In this document: positions 33,211 through 39,481 of the stretch, piece after piece
Position numbering within the stretch: position 1 is the stretch's first letter
How the letters are laid out: every line of letters begins with the position of its first letter
NCBI RefSeq assembly: GCF_002836515.1
Contig: NZ_PJBC01000066.1
Location: forward strand, 62,001-126,000
Direction: 5' to 3'
Source of the DNA: Pseudomonas sp. Choline-02u-1
Lineage (GTDB): Bacteria > Pseudomonadota > Gammaproteobacteria > Pseudomonadales > Pseudomonadaceae
DNA: 64,000 bases
The notes under the pieces: generated by a model
The model's input: only the letters and a program-made list of their open reading frames with translations
What the model was told of the DNA's origin: nothing
Database searches by the model: none
Translations under genes and position numbers: made by a program

Positions 33211-33237
33211 AAGGCCTGCGATTGCAGGCCTTTTTTT
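33211..33237. terminator. Rho-independent terminator shared by convergent genes
   Basis: AAGGCCTGC-GATT-GCAGGCCTTTTTTT. Its T-run touches the last codon region of the minus-strand asparaginase, so it serves zapE well and the asparaginase less clearly. Confidence 0.9.
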
Positions 33238-34222
33238 ATGGGGCCGGTTCAGCGAGGCAGGTTGCCAACTTTGATTGTTGTCGGCAGCCAACCAGAAGCC
33301 ACAGCAGAATTCTCGCTTTGCGCGGGCACAGGAACCCGGCCATCAGGGCGCCTTTGCGGGTGATATCGATTTCACTGCCGGCGAAGCCATAGGTCGCTTG
33401 CGCCGTCGCGCCGCAGCCGGTGCGGGTGGCGATGATCACCGGAATGTGCCGGGCAATGCCTTCGATGACATCGGCCCACTGCGCTGAAACATGGCCGGCA
33501 CCGAAGCCTGCGATCACCAGGCCGGCGTAACCCAACTCCACAACTTTATCCAACAGCCGACTGTCGGCACCGAGTGACGCTTCCAGCAAAGCAATATTCT
33601 GGTGGGTGTCTTGTGGTATCGGTAAAACATGGCGCGCAACCGGCGCCCGGAAGTAGCGCGCAGCGCCTTCGATTATCAACCCAGCAGGACCGGTCAAGGG
33701 AGAGGCGAAGGCGTGCATGGCCATCGAGTCGACCTTGCGCACGCTACTGGCGCGGTGAATCTCGCCGTTGATAACCACCTGCGCGCCGCGCCCACGACTG
33801 CACGCCGCCAACGCGACACGACCGGCATCCAGAAGGTTCGCCGGTCCGTCAGCCCCGGCTTGCGCGGCAGAACGCATGGCACCTGTCAGCACCAGTGGTT
33901 CGTCATGCGCCCACAGGTAATCGAAAAACGTCGCGGATTCCTCCAGAGTGTCCGTGCCCTGGATGACGATGACTGCGGCCGCGCCTTGGCTGATCTGCGC
34001 GTTGGCCCAGTCCAGCACGTTCAAGAGGTAGTCGAAATCCAGTGACGCGCTGGGCAGCAGTCCGAAAGTTTCGACGGTTAGATGCCCATGCTTTTTCAGT
34101 TCGGGCACGGTGTCCAGCAGCGTTTCCCCGGACACTGCAGGGACGACCCCTTGACCGCTTTGCGTCGATTGCATGCTGACAGTGCCACCCAGCGCGGCAA
34201 TGGCCAGTGTTGGCAGTTCCAT
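33236..34222 (-). CDS. Asparaginase family protein
   Basis: 328 residues. The N-terminal threonine motif appears as AALGGTVSM (TGGTI in most members), and the second motif is clear as VIQGTDTLEESATFFDYL. Both catalytic threonines are therefore present, at about residues 14 and 90. No signal peptide, so it is cytosolic. It hydrolyses asparagine or a related amide. The last 25 residues (ILLWLLVGCRQQSKLATC) look unlike the family and may be a read-on tail. It is the last gene of a minus-strand operon with a membrane protein and a nitrilase-type hydrolase. Confidence 0.87.
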   Translation of the reverse strand: MELPTLAIAALGGTVSMQSTQSGQGVVPAVSGETLLDTVPELKKHGHLTVETFGLLPSASLDFDYLLNVLDWANAQISQGAAAVIVIQGTDTLEESATFFDYLWAHDEPLVLTGAMRSAAQAGADGPANLLDAGRVALAACSRGRGAQVVINGEIHRASSVRKVDSMAMHAFASPLTGPAGLIIEGAARYFRAPVARHVLPIPQDTHQNIALLEASLGADSRLLDKVVELGYAGLVIAGFGAGHVSAQWADVIEGIARHIPVIIATRTGCGATAQATYGFAGSEIDITRKGALMAGFLCPRKARILLWLLVGCRQQSKLATCLAEPAP

Positions 34223-34292: not shown

Positions 34293-35498
34293 TCAGTGGC
34301 TGGCCAGCCATCCGACGATTGGCACGATCAAGAGCGTACTGAGGGCCATCGACAACACGTTACCGATAAAGCCATGCATGTAGCCTGGCAGCCGCTGCGC
34401 GAGGGCGCAGGCCAATGGCGGCGCGATCAGCGCGCCGAGCAGCGCACTGGAAATGATCACTTGCCAATCTGCGCCGTAAGTGAGAATCGCGGCCGGAACA
34501 ACGGACACCAGCGGTACATACGTCGGATACCAGCCGCGCGCCATCCACTGCCTGCGCCAGATCACCACGCCCAAGGCTGACGTCAACGCCTGTCCCGCGA
34601 GCAGTTGCGGCAACAGACCTGTCCCGTAGACCGGGCTCATCGGGTTGAGTGTGAATGCGAGCAACGCACCGACAATCAGCCCCAGACTGGCCCACTCATT
34701 ACCGAAGAAAGGCGCTTCGGAGAAATCTGCCAAGACCCGGCGCATGCTCCACACCACGCCGTAATCCGGCGCCTTGGTGGGCACGGTGACACTGGCTTGC
34801 ACGTCGGCCTGCGCAGGTTCTGCGGATTTCACCAGGCTCGGCACGCAGCGACACAGCACGAAGGCGCCAATGCTGGCAATGGCCATGCCCGAAACGTTAC
34901 CGATCACCACCGGCAAGCCGAGTGGATTGCATACGTAATTGACAATCACCAGGCACAGCGGTGTCACTGACAGGGCTCCCAGGATTGCGCCGTTGATTGC
35001 GACTTTCCAGCCGCCGCCAAACATCAGCACCATCGCCGCCGGCAACGACACGAACGCCGCGAAGGTGGGCTGCCAACTGGTGGCGGTGACAGTCCAGCCC
35101 CACAGCAGATTGCTCAGTGCCAGCCCCAGCAATGAACTGGTGACCAGCCACGGCCAGAGCCCGCTGCCGTAGCAGATTGTGAAACCTTGCCAGGATTTCC
35201 CCGTTCGATTCGCCCAATAGCCCAGGTATGCACCGGCCAGCAGGCCAATCGAGGCGAACTCGTGCTTATAGAACGCCACCTCGCTGATATCCCCGAGCAC
35301 CCAGCGCAGCCAGGCAGCCGCGTCGGGAAAGCTCGAGACCATATGGCCGTAATCCGGCCAGCGCGCTGACCACAGCGAATGATAGGTTAGAGAAAGCCAG
35401 GCGATGACTGCCGCTGCACCCACCAACAGGACGATGATCGTGTTGTCCATCGATGTTCTGGCCACGATTGTTTTGCGTTGTTTTGCGTGAACGTCCAT
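34293..35498 (-). CDS. Uncharacterised polytopic membrane protein with two homologous halves
   Basis: 401 residues, about 10 membrane segments. The two halves, residues about 48-215 and 247-395, are clearly related. Matching pieces in order are GDISEVAFYKHEFASIGLL and ADFSEAPFFGNEWASLGLI; YGSGLWPWL and YGTGLLPQL; WQPTFAAFVSLPAA and WYPTYVPLVSVVPAA; then GWKVAINGAILGAL and DWQVIISSALLGAL; and VVIGNVSGMA and GFIGNVLSMA. This is the pattern of a transporter born by gene duplication. I do not recognise the family. ATG 35498 follows CCGGAGG; its place between two amide hydrolases suggests it moves an amino acid or amide. Confidence 0.8.
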   Translation of the reverse strand: MDVHAKQRKTIVARTSMDNTIIVLLVGAAAVIAWLSLTYHSLWSARWPDYGHMVSSFPDAAAWLRWVLGDISEVAFYKHEFASIGLLAGAYLGYWANRTGKSWQGFTICYGSGLWPWLVTSSLLGLALSNLLWGWTVTATSWQPTFAAFVSLPAAMVLMFGGGWKVAINGAILGALSVTPLCLVIVNYVCNPLGLPVVIGNVSGMAIASIGAFVLCRCVPSLVKSAEPAQADVQASVTVPTKAPDYGVVWSMRRVLADFSEAPFFGNEWASLGLIVGALLAFTLNPMSPVYGTGLLPQLLAGQALTSALGVVIWRRQWMARGWYPTYVPLVSVVPAAILTYGADWQVIISSALLGALIAPPLACALAQRLPGYMHGFIGNVLSMALSTLLIVPIVGWLASH

Positions 35499-35512
35499 AG
35501 GCTGGCCTCCGG

Positions 35513-36400
35513 TTAACGCGGCAGGCATGGATGCTGGGTGTAACCGAGCATCCGGTCGTAGACATCACAGCGCCGATCTCGGTGCAGATCGTTCAGCTCG
35601 TTCCAGATTGGCGCACTGCGCGAACTCGTCAGGTCGATATCGGCGTAGAGGATTTCCTGCTGATCGGCGGACGCCACGCGGCCGATCGGCCAGCCGTTAG
35701 TGCCAGCAATCAGCGAACATCCAAGGTAACGAGCGCCACGCTCTTCGCCGATTCGACTCGCCGCCGCGATGAACACGTTGTTGACGTGCGCTGCGGTCAT
35801 GGTGAGGTACGAAGCCATGCACTTGCCGGCGTCATCGAACAAGGGCGGTGGTGTCCAGACCCAGTTGTTCAGGCTGCAGATGATGTCCGCGCCCTGCTGG
35901 CTGAGGATCCTCGGGACTTCAGGAAACCAGATGTCCCAGCAGATCAGCAGACCGATGCGACCGATCGGCGTTTCGAACACCGGGAAACCGCTATCGCCGG
36001 CAGTGAACCAGAGCTTCTCCAGATTCCACAGGTGCGCCTTGCGGTATTTGCCGATGAAACCGTCAGGTCCCAACAGCACGGCGGTGTTGTACAACCGCGC
36101 CCCTTCGCGCTCGGCCAGTCCAGCCACCAGATACACCTGATGCTGGCGGGCAAAATCCTCCCAGCGGCTCACGCTTGGTCCATCCGGAACCGATTCGGCG
36201 TGATCGAACGCATCCTGTCGAGTGCGAAAGAAATAACCGGTACTCGTCAGCTCGGGCAAAACGATGAGATTGGCACCACCATTGACCGCCTGCAGTGCCA
36301 ACTCCAGGCTGTTACTTAGATTCGCTGCACGATTTTTCGTACCGACCTGCGGATCACATTGCACGACCGCAACACGAACGGGGCTTGTTGACTCACTCAT
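35513..36400 (-). CDS. Carbon-nitrogen hydrolase (nitrilase superfamily amidase)
   Basis: 295 residues. The catalytic triad is visible: Glu in VLPELTSTGY, Lys in KYRKAHLW, and Cys in LLICWDIWFPE. The family cleaves amides and N-carbamoyl compounds; enzymes of this type follow amino-acid 2-monooxygenases in the DavBA lysine route. Here the gene lies directly downstream of a broken amino-acid monooxygenase, which fits hydrolysis of its carboxamide product. The substrate itself is not readable. It ends 14 bases before the membrane protein start. Confidence 0.9.
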   Translation of the reverse strand: MSESTSPVRVAVVQCDPQVGTKNRAANLSNSLELALQAVNGGANLIVLPELTSTGYFFRTRQDAFDHAESVPDGPSVSRWEDFARQHQVYLVAGLAEREGARLYNTAVLLGPDGFIGKYRKAHLWNLEKLWFTAGDSGFPVFETPIGRIGLLICWDIWFPEVPRILSQQGADIICSLNNWVWTPPPLFDDAGKCMASYLTMTAAHVNNVFIAAASRIGEERGARYLGCSLIAGTNGWPIGRVASADQQEILYADIDLTSSRSAPIWNELNDLHRDRRCDVYDRMLGYTQHPCLPR

Positions 36401-36591
36401 TTTTCATGATCCCTTATTGTTGTTTTCACGCCATCGGGTGGCGGGGAACATAAGAGTCGAGTCAGCCGTGGAAGGTAAGTCGGCGCTTTCCGGTTAAGTT
36501 GTAGTACGCCTCCTGGGACGATTAAACACATATCGACGGTGCGCGCTCACCACGCTGTATTTTCCAGGGGCAAGAGCCTGCTCCGAAAAGT
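36401..36591. other. Intergenic gap of 191 bases inside the amide operon
   Basis: No gene is seen. It separates the end of the broken monooxygenase frame from the hydrolase start and is long for a gap within one operon, so the hydrolase may have its own promoter here. Confidence 0.4.
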
Positions 36592-38302
36592 TCATGGGCC
36601 GGCCTGGTAGTGTGGATAGTCGGCTATCTCGAAGCCGCCATTGAACTGCGCCGAGGTTTTTTCGCAAATATGAATCACAGCATCGATGGCGCCGCGAAAG
36701 CAGGGCTCTGTCCAACCGGCATCTACCGAAAACGACTCGCCCGACAGATACAACCCGGAAACGCTCGAGTAGTCTCGGTTGTATCGCATCAGGCTGACAG
36801 CGTCGTGATAGGCGCCGGGGCGGTAAAGCTTGGCGCAACCCAGTGAGTTCCTGTGGTCATCCAGCGCTGCACGACGGCCTGCTCCAGGCCGATGTAAGGC
36901 GAGATGCGCTGCCCGATATTGCTGCAGTTCACCAGGATCCGATCAAGTTCTTCGGCGCATTCGGTGATCAGTTCCTTGTCGCTGAAACAGCAAAGTTTGG
37001 TCGCGTCGTCTTCCCAGGTATAACTGAGAAGAATGCAGTCGTAACTGTAGTGATCGTTATAGCGGTAGGTATAAACATCGTGGATGAAACTGTCCGTGAC
37101 GATCGCTTGGGGGATAGCGGTGTTGCCGGACAGAAAAGATTTCTTCAGCGGAGCGAACACCTTGCAGCTGGTTTCCCAATGCGCAGTCTTATAGGCATTG
37201 ATCGTCTCGAACGGCAACATTTGTGCAGTGAAATTTTCAAGCTTGATTCGTGTTTCGATCAGCCACGAAGGCAGCGTCATGATCACTGAATCAAAATCGC
37301 TGAAGTGTTCCTCGGCCTGCTGCGGCCGACTTTGCTTCCAGTTGTAGTAGACACGGGTTTTACCGTTGGCGAGCTTTTTCAACCGCGTGACGGAGCTGTC
37401 GGTCAGCAAGCCTTCGCGGTATTGCAGGCAGTGTTGGTAGGAAGACATCGGCACTTCATCTGGCTTGATGAACATAAGGCCTTCGCTCAGCGCCGCGAGC
37501 CCAAGGTAGCGCGGGCCTTCAAACTGCAGGCCGGTTGAATCGAAAACCGCATTGCTGCGGGCATGCTCACCAGATCACGGAAGGAAATGGCGTGATACCT
37601 GGCGACAATAGCTGCCCATACGGATTCCCATTGCTCACTCGCATAACTGTCGCAAACGTGTCGGGTCATACGGTCGGCGAACGCTCTCCATTTCGCATAG
37701 ACCGCTTGCAGTTCCTCTCCGGGAGGCAGGGTGCGACCATCGGCGTTTTTCCAGATCAGCATTTGCGGCGTAGCCGGCTTTGACAGGCTGCCCTCGCGCA
37801 GATAAATGCCGGTCGATCTGACCCATTGGCTGCCGGGATTGGCAAAGTCTGACAGGGCCAGCTCGAATATCGTCGCGTAGTAGGCCATCAGCGAACGACC
37901 GTCCTTTGGCGATTCTCCTTCGCGATTGAACAACGGCATGCGCATCGCGCCCATTTCGAAAGGGGTATGACTGGCCTTGGATTGAGGACTGCCGGGAACG
38001 GTCAGATGCCTGCCGCCGATTCGCGAGGATTGTTCAATCAGGGTTATATGGGTGAAGCCGCAGCGCAGTAATTCTCGGGCGGCCGTGAGGCCTGTAATGC
38101 CGGCGCCGATAATGCATATTCGATGGCTGGAATCAGTCGCTCGGGCGATTCCGCCTGGCTGCTCCAATAACGCCCGGTAGTCAAAACACAGATCCGGCGG
38201 ATTGGGGAAACGAGCTTTCCATTTGCCGGATGGCGAACGTTTGTTACGGGTTTCGAGGCCAGGAGCCTGGGAGGGGTAGTTGTAGCTGGAGCCGATGGTC
38301 AC
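36592..38302 (-). pseudogene. Flavin amino-acid 2-monooxygenase (DavB/IaaM/PAO-like), disrupted
   Basis: The minus-strand reading passes through three frames. Part 1 (38302 to about 37545) has the FAD motif ICIIGAGITGLTAAREL and runs to HAISFRDLVSMPAA. It then continues in another frame with VFDSTGLQFEGPRYLGLAAL and IKPDEVPMSSYQHC (to about 36840). A second shift at about 36840 leads into LGCAKLYRPGAYHDAVS and GLYLSGESFSVDAGWTEPCF, ending at 36592. Part 2 also seems to lack the roughly 90 residues the family has between the two pieces at the first break. Related enzymes oxidatively decarboxylate Lys, Trp or Phe to carboxamides. As sequenced no full protein can be made. Confidence 0.85.
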
Positions 38303-38485: not shown

Positions 38486-39481
38486 TTATGCAGCCTGCTG
38501 GAACTGCTGCCGATACTGGTTCGGCGACAGTTCGGTGTGCTGGCGGAACAATCGTGCGAAGAAACTCGCATCGTCGTAACCGACCTCATAGCTGATGGTC
38601 TTGATGCTCTTGCGCGTGCCGGAGAGCAAACCCTTGGCGGTCTCGATGCGCAGGCGCTGCAAGTAATGCAGTGGCTTGTCGCCGGTGGCGGTCTGGAAGC
38701 GGCGCATGAAGTTGCGGATGCTCATTCCATGCTCGCGAGCGACGTCTTCGAAGCGAAACTTGTCGGCGAAATGCTCTTCGAGCCAGTGCTGGATCTGCAG
38801 AATGATGACGTCCTGGTGCAGCTTTTGCCCGCCGAAGCCGATACGCCCCGGCGAGTAACTGCGCTGCACCTCGTACAGGATGTCGCGGGCCACGGCCTGC
38901 GCTACGTTCGAGCCGCAGAAGCGTTCGATCAGATAGATATAGAGATCGCAGGCTGAGGTGGTGCCGCCGGCACAGTAGAGGTTGTCGGCATCGGTCAGGT
39001 GCTTGTCCTGATTCAGATAGACCTTGGGGAAGCGCTCTGCGAAGGCATTGAAGAAGCGCCAATAGGTGGTCGCTTCCTTGCCATTGAGCAGCCCGGCTTC
39101 GGCAAGCCAGAACACCCCAGTGGCTTCGCCGCACAACACCGCGCCGCGCGCATGCTGTTCGCGCAGCCACGGCAGGATTTGCGGGTAACGGCCGCACAGC
39201 GTATCGAAATCGTCCCAGAACGCCGGGAGGATGATCACATCGGCGTTTTCCAGGCCGCCGTCGACCGGCATGACCACATCGCTGAAGCTTTTCACCGGTT
39301 TGCCATCGGGGCTGACCAGGCGCGTTTCGAACGCCGGCGTCAGGCCATGGCCCAGTTGTTTGCCGTAACGCAGGCTGGCCACGTGGAAAAAATCCTTGGC
39401 CTGCATGAGGGTGTAAGCGAAAACCCGGTCGATAGCCAGGATGCTGACGCGCCGCAAGGGCGGGGAGACGTGCTTGGACAT
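38486..39481 (-). CDS. GlxA-type transcriptional regulator (DJ-1/PfpI domain plus AraC domain)
   Basis: 331 residues. The N-terminal half is a DJ-1/PfpI-like sensor with the elbow cysteine in GAVLCGEATGVFWLAEAG. The C-terminal part (about 225-325) is an AraC-type DNA-binding domain with two helix-turn-helix motifs, seen in FEDVAREHGMSIRNFMRRF and ISYEVGYDDASFFARLFRQ. Regulators of this type often respond to small nitrogen compounds, but the inducer here is unknown. It is divergent from the acyl-CoA dehydrogenase across 151 bases and probably controls it. Confidence 0.92.
   Translation of the reverse strand: MSKHVSPPLRRVSILAIDRVFAYTLMQAKDFFHVASLRYGKQLGHGLTPAFETRLVSPDGKPVKSFSDVVMPVDGGLENADVIILPAFWDDFDTLCGRYPQILPWLREQHARGAVLCGEATGVFWLAEAGLLNGKEATTYWRFFNAFAERFPKVYLNQDKHLTDADNLYCAGGTTSACDLYIYLIERFCGSNVAQAVARDILYEVQRSYSPGRIGFGGQKLHQDVIILQIQHWLEEHFADKFRFEDVAREHGMSIRNFMRRFQTATGDKPLHYLQRLRIETAKGLLSGTRKSIKTISYEVGYDDASFFARLFRQHTELSPNQYRQQFQQAA

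Follow-up and report, generated by a model that had tools for sequence, protein, structure and literature searches.

A Pseudomonas membrane protein with a predicted urea transporter fold, encoded beside amide hydrolases, as a candidate amide channel

The window analyzed in this study, a stretch of 64,000 nucleotides from Pseudomonas sp. Choline-02u-1, contains on its minus strand a gene (34293..35498) for a membrane protein of 401 aa that is built from two repeats, is predicted to have the fold of a urea transporter (UT) and has no Pfam or NCBIfam family. A probable ribosome binding site, GGAGG (35506..35510, minus strand, recognized by reading of the sequence), precedes the start codon (ATG, at 35498) by 7 nt, and 14 nt separate the membrane protein gene from the stop of the gene upstream of it. 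That upstream gene (35513..36400, minus strand) encodes a nitrilase-superfamily amidase of 295 aa (CN_hydrolase; PF00795, E 6.8e-56), the closest solved relative of which is 3ivz (E 2.5e-57). Directly downstream (33236..34222, minus strand) is the gene for an asparaginase-family amidohydrolase of 328 aa (PF00710, E 1.2e-46, and PF17763), in which no signal peptide was evident by eye. The position between a nitrilase-type amidase and an asparaginase that had been read from the DNA alone was therefore borne out by the domain matches on both sides. As a base rate for such neighbors, the 5.97 Mb genome has nine CN_hydrolase places, three asparaginase places and three amidase-signature matches, one of the latter being below the cut-off and the other two being pieces of one frame.

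Upstream of the amidase gene, comparison with relatives revealed a broken gene for a flavin L-amino-acid monooxygenase (36494..38302, minus strand), which is in three pieces in the window while the amidase, membrane protein and asparaginase frames stay open. Two near relatives (L058 and L062) have an intact monooxygenase frame of 649 aa, and the closest solved relative of the intact counterpart is tryptophan 2-monooxygenase (4iv9, E 2.3e-28). Further upstream is a gene for an AraC-type regulator with a DJ-1/PfpI domain (38486-39481, minus strand), which was near the membrane protein gene in 58 of 99 Pseudomonas loci, always accompanied by at least one of the same two chromosomal flanking genes, and which could be a regulator of the cluster or unrelated to it.

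The membrane protein frame is a real gene, as judged by matches in 131 of the 398 genomes of the genus, by dN/dS values of 0.06-0.18 in four comparisons, which indicate purifying selection, and by a frame that stays open over 350 codons or more in 95 of the 99 loci. The gene is broken or truncated in four loci (L049, L050, L055 and L056) and so seems sometimes to be dispensable. The 99 loci consist of the best 80 of 196 confirmed matches plus 19 of 20 that were chosen for divergence or breakage; L057, taken for the G310 match, was left out as it contained no match. One of the 131 genomes, G413, has a weak match of 61 residues only (the matches at G310:C47 and G413:C78 are 31% identical over ~60 residues). 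The nearest named relative, among the best 80 of 196, is that of P. siliginis at 93% identity. Another carrier is the soil strain P. fluorescens FW300-N2E3 (L088), for which barcoded-transposon data exist (mutant pool named in PMC9007349). A class-level sample gave two matches in 369 genomes, one being the window's own genome and the other a match of 16.6 bits with two stops that was taken as chance, and a phylum-level sample gave two in 398, both in the genus and one of them the own genome. None of 24 pattern matches in viral contigs was confirmed. Other phyla were sampled through a plasmid collection only.

In 92 of the 99 Pseudomonas loci an amidase gene is directly upstream of the membrane protein gene, with a median gap of 18 nt (estimated range -31 to 33 nt), and in 95 a same-strand amidase gene is no more than 4 kb away. 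In 71 loci the next gene downstream is that of the asparaginase. The N-terminal part of a tryptophan-2-monooxygenase-like protein was detected in 69 loci, in 63 of which the gene is intact, and 27 loci have the amidase and the membrane protein without a detected monooxygenase, although among these the contig of L127 ends before the monooxygenase place and L054 keeps a short remnant. Since the 99 loci are related, these counts are not independent trials and show persistence. Five Pseudomonas copies had no amide hydrolase among the neighbors scanned: those of L042, L046 and L055 (a truncated gene), as well as the second of two copies in each of L038 and L039, that of L038 having a TPP-enzyme neighbor and an upstream side cut by a contig end. 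The constant linkage to amidases that the sequence-only reading had looked for was thus found in part: the linkage recurs, also in other genera, but it is not constant, given these five copies and one relative from Arthrobacter.

Six relatives with identities of 40-48% were identified among the 72,556 records of the plasmid collection, and those in annotated records are carried as 'hypothetical protein'. An amide hydrolase gene adjoins five of the six on the same strand, and it is of the nitrilase type or the amidase-signature type, which are two unrelated families. On the Phyllobacterium plasmid a nitrilase-type gene precedes the membrane protein gene and an amidase-signature gene follows it, the order on the Paenarthrobacter plasmid is asparaginase, nitrilase type and then membrane protein, and on two Rhodococcus plasmids and one Prescottella plasmid an amidase-signature gene comes before the membrane protein gene. 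The hydrolase families were confirmed with Pfam for Phyllobacterium, Paenarthrobacter and one Rhodococcus, and were taken from the record annotation for the others. The Arthrobacter relative, from an unannotated record, had no amide hydrolase in four nearby frames. In two of the three Rhodococcus and Prescottella plasmids an AmiS/UreI gene and a second amidase gene follow the membrane protein gene; these AmiS/UreI genes (L143, 13853-14509; L144, 12374-13027) are a few kb from it, so that two kinds of putative amide channel lie side by side. That the partners belong to one class but to unrelated enzyme families indicates that the link is to a chemistry, either an amide coming in or ammonia going out, and not to one enzyme. 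Adjacency to an amidase has been used in a similar manner to infer an amide transporter (PMC3098086).

Searches by sequence assigned the membrane protein to no family, in agreement with the sequence-only reading, in which it was not recognized. There was no match to any Pfam or NCBIfam family at E values up to 1, including the profiles of the UT family (PF03253) and of the AmiS/UreI family, and two distant members of the family had no match in Pfam at E up to 0.01. A phmmer search of the PDB produced only three chance rows (E 0.13-0.21) and a profile search of the PDB produced none.

The claim that the protein is composed of two homologous halves proved to be well founded. Profile comparison, which had been proposed as a check for an internal repeat, was performed with hhalign on alignments of the two halves (10 sequences) and revealed a significant two-fold repeat (probability 99.5, E 2.3e-23, 37% identity over 141 columns). 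The BLOSUM62 local score of the halves was 225, compared to a mean of 39, an SD of 7.3 and a maximum of 78 for 2000 shuffles. All five motif pairs quoted in support of the repeat are present: EFASIGLLAG (residues 80-89) with EWASLGLIVG (268-277), YGSGL (110-114) with YGTGL (291-295), WQPTF (142-146) with WYPTY (323-327), AILGALSVTP (171-180) with ALLGALIAPP (352-361) and IGNVSGMA (199-206) with IGNVLSMA (378-385). Based on DSSP of the predicted model and the repeat alignment, repeat 1 (residues 60-218; 34845..35321, minus strand) has a half-helix, P1, followed by five helices, and repeat 2 (residues 248-400; 34299..34757, minus strand) has a half-helix, P2, and then also five helices.

An AlphaFold2 model of the window protein, based on 61 sequences, had a pLDDT of 76.1 and a pTM of 0.77, and each of its halves has one short helix and five longer ones. 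When this model was searched with Foldseek, a probability of 1.00 was obtained for six entries, all of them urea transporters (best E 3.7e-4), and no entry other than a UT exceeded 0.33 among the 50 matches listed. With VIA-align 2, 16 UT entries scored Z 22.2-23.4 among the matches listed, with 280-304 residues aligned at 3.1-4.5 A and 12-17% identity, and the next classes were Rh/Amt (Z 11.3-12.1) and then Rnf/Nqr (~8). We also modeled a 67%-identical relative from P. fragi, using 20 sequences that did not include the window protein (pLDDT 70.0, pTM 0.68). For this second model the UT entries scored Z 21.2-22.1 in VIA-align 2, followed by Amt/Rh at 9.8-11.8, and in Foldseek UTs took six of the first seven ranks with probabilities of 0.91-1.00, at E-values none of which was below 0.001 (best 2.7e-3). 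Among the 50 matches listed for each model, only UTs reached a Foldseek probability of 0.9 or more. Since the two models, both of which are predictions with shared sequences, gave the same match, the assignment is independent of any single model. Structure prediction, which the sequence-only reading had recommended, thus makes it very likely that the window protein has the fold of the urea transporters (UT/SLC14).

This predicted fold was not accompanied by a significant full-length similarity of sequence profiles. In hhalign comparisons the full UT alignment and the membrane protein family showed no significant similarity (probability no higher than 3.9), stacking of the repeats did not rescue the comparison (probability 4.6), and a single half against a single UT half reached 19 at best with a shifted helix register; in the positive control, UT half against UT half, the probability was 99.5. 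A rearranged helix order was considered based on the weak matches in shifted register, and was dropped because the structural matches are collinear along their whole length.

The two halves of UTs are opposed, and each is described by a scheme of a pore half-helix (Pa or Pb) and helices T1-T5 (PMC4357013). For a comparison of these half-helices with P1 and P2, ungapped profile windows were scored all against all (~100,000) with no register favored. The best pairs of 24 and 30 columns, both raw and centered, aligned residues 252-281 with the UT Pb half-helix (z 4.9-5.8), and P1 against Pa was sixth or eighth in the centered lists with P1 against Pb likewise high. With raw windows of 16 columns another, unrelated pair was first, and competing windows score only slightly lower, so we regard the sequence support for the UT pore half-helix register as modest. 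In that register E261 (34716..34718, minus strand) would occupy the position of dvUT E187, a Gln in mammalian UTs, in the second half-helix. For the first half-helix, the VIA structural alignments to dvUT start at the pairs 59-10 for the window protein and 29-8 for the P. fragi relative, and gap-free counting from either pair brings E73 (35280..35282, minus strand), which is residue 45 in the shortened P. fragi protein, opposite dvUT Q24, a placement that also draws on the profile-window alignment and on conservation. Among the 87 rows of the family alignment (86 distinct), E73 is Glu in 86 and F76 is Phe in 84, and E261 is Glu in all 87 and F264 is Phe in 86. The Gln/Glu and Phe of the UT half-helices (dvUT Q24, F27, E187 and F190) would therefore be matched in the window family, with the register taken from the profile-window and start-pair alignments. 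The comparison set of 40 bacterial UT rows has Gln in 19 at the first position and Gln or Glu in 22 at the second, and the feature is accordingly typical of UTs and not universal. The residues reported for the dvUT filter are Q24, V25, F27, F80, L84, L129, T130, E187, V188, F190, F243, L247, L293 and T294 (PMC5311045).

The threonine motif of the UT filter, on the other hand, is absent. As the register of the last helix is not fixed, the LPxxTxPF motif was scanned for without any register, and it was present in none of the 87 family rows versus 17 of the 40 UT rows; the relaxed form [LIVM]Pxx[TS]xPF was present in none versus 33. At about the place of the first LPxxTxPF of UTs, as located by the model and the motif scan in an approximate register, the last helix of repeat 1 starts with LPVVIGNV (34893..34916, minus strand); from the repeat alignment and the model, the corresponding segment that opens the last helix of repeat 2 is MHGFIGNV (34356..34379, minus strand). 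A placement by eye of I199 on the UT filter threonine was dropped, as the profile-window alignment puts G194 there.

Compared with UT/SLC14 (PF03253; dvUT 3k3f, bovine UT-B 4ezc), the window protein is alike in its predicted fold over the whole repeat region, in its two homologous halves that each have a half-helix and five helices, and in the Glu and Phe that it has in the half-helices where dvUT has Gln/Glu and Phe. It differs in having no profile match and no LPxxTxPF, in its length of ~400 aa with an extra N-terminal helix, and in genes that lie beside those of amide hydrolases. Given the lack of both the profile match and the motif, we kept it out of PF03253, and it is probably a separate family which, judged from the models, looks like a UT and probably works like one. 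The AmiS/UreI proteins are comparable as channels for urea or amides, as well as by the gene that occurs with a second amidase gene near two Rhodococcus-group relatives, but they are a separate family, the fold of which differs from the UT-type fold.

The sequence-only reading had suggested a transporter or channel for an amino acid or its amide, and the part of that suggestion that concerns an amide gained computational support from the predicted urea channel fold together with the linkage to amide hydrolases. Urea is itself an amide, and a predicted urea channel fold hence fits the proposal of an amide channel. Mammalian UT-B passes small amides as a side activity. We favor, by a modest measure, a role as a passive channel of the UT fold that admits a small amide, which cytoplasmic amidases then trap by hydrolysis. 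An amide is the likely substrate, and we infer a channel rather than a pump, an inward direction and a trimer. The contribution of each half would be five membrane helices plus a short half-helix of the pore, which is P1, carrying E73, in the first half and P2, carrying E261, in the second. By analogy with UTs, the halves would be oppositely oriented and a single narrow pore would form where they meet, in what is probably a trimeric assembly. In UT channels, dehydrated urea passes in single file (PMC4357013) and transport is from high to low concentration (PMC10392092). In the window protein, a small uncharged carboxamide would diffuse inward down its gradient, amidases from the same gene cluster would split it in the cytoplasm into carboxylic acid and ammonium, and this hydrolysis would maintain the gradient and trap both nitrogen and carbon. 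Where the cluster includes a flavin monooxygenase of the type that converts an amino acid to an amide, as it does in many relatives, this enzyme would feed the same amidase. From the Glu in both half-helices and the missing threonine motif, the substrate is expected to be a small neutral carboxamide other than urea.

The main rival, which is serious even if we consider it unlikely, is an outlet for ammonia or ammonium, by which the channel would relieve the cell of, or recover, the ammonia made by the linked hydrolases, in the manner of Amt/Rh. Every linked hydrolase makes ammonia, which is a product that they share in place of any known common substrate, and the rival explains the linkage equally well. 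Amt/Rh proteins are also channels with a two-fold repeat and were the second-best fold class for both models, but UTs scored ~10 Z units above them (Z 22-23 against ~12 for the window protein). Amt proteins have twin pore histidines at equivalent places of their two halves. No such arrangement is apparent in the window protein, the conserved histidines of which (H79 in 81 of 87 rows, H375 in 85) are not at equivalent places in the sequence-level repeat alignment.

That the protein is a plain, overlooked urea channel would agree with the UT fold and with the acidic residue in each half-helix, at a position often taken by Gln or Glu in UTs, yet this appears improbable in view of the missing profile match and threonine motif, the presence of a true UT elsewhere in the genome (G000:C12), and five annotated plasmid loci with no urease gene among their listed features. 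Slightly less probable still is export of an amide or acid made inside by the monooxygenase and amidase (indoleacetamide/auxin-like or phenylacetate-like), for although the tryptophan-2-monooxygenase-like gene is common in the Pseudomonas loci and mostly intact, it is broken in the window, it went undetected in the 27 loci noted above (one of them cut by a contig end), and no gene so named is listed around the five annotated plasmid relatives, the gene tables of which are incomplete. Because the amidase and the channel occur without the monooxygenase, the pair seems to be independent of amide made inside, and uptake from outside is favored.

A tentative extension of the amide uptake proposal, in which we have less confidence than in the proposal itself, is a larger channel superfamily in which UTs form one branch and the window family another, dedicated to organic amides. 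Under this tentative scheme the hydrolase in each cluster would be whichever type the host employs for amides (nitrilase, amidase-signature or asparaginase), and the pore would have retained acidic residues in both half-helices but lost the urea filter's threonine motif, perhaps for the passage of larger or less polar amides. No description of an amide channel of the UT type or of the gene cluster was found among the matches listed from the open-licence PMC literature. Our analyses predict a fold for a protein found in roughly one third of the sampled Pseudomonas species, and they give it a likely pore and a role that can be tested. If amide uptake is indeed its role, the handling of organic amides would be a dedicated function of the UT fold as well, comparison would allow the basis of UT-fold selectivity to be tested, and a channel would be available for amidase and nitrile biocatalysis.

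Some loci have other arrangements of the gene. In L042 (10325-11476) and L046 (7217-8359) a lone channel gene is beside a subtilase (Peptidase_S8) gene, and L039 (6089-7096) and L038 (13444-14499) have second, diverged channel copies less than 10 kb from the first, at 54% and 49% identity, respectively.
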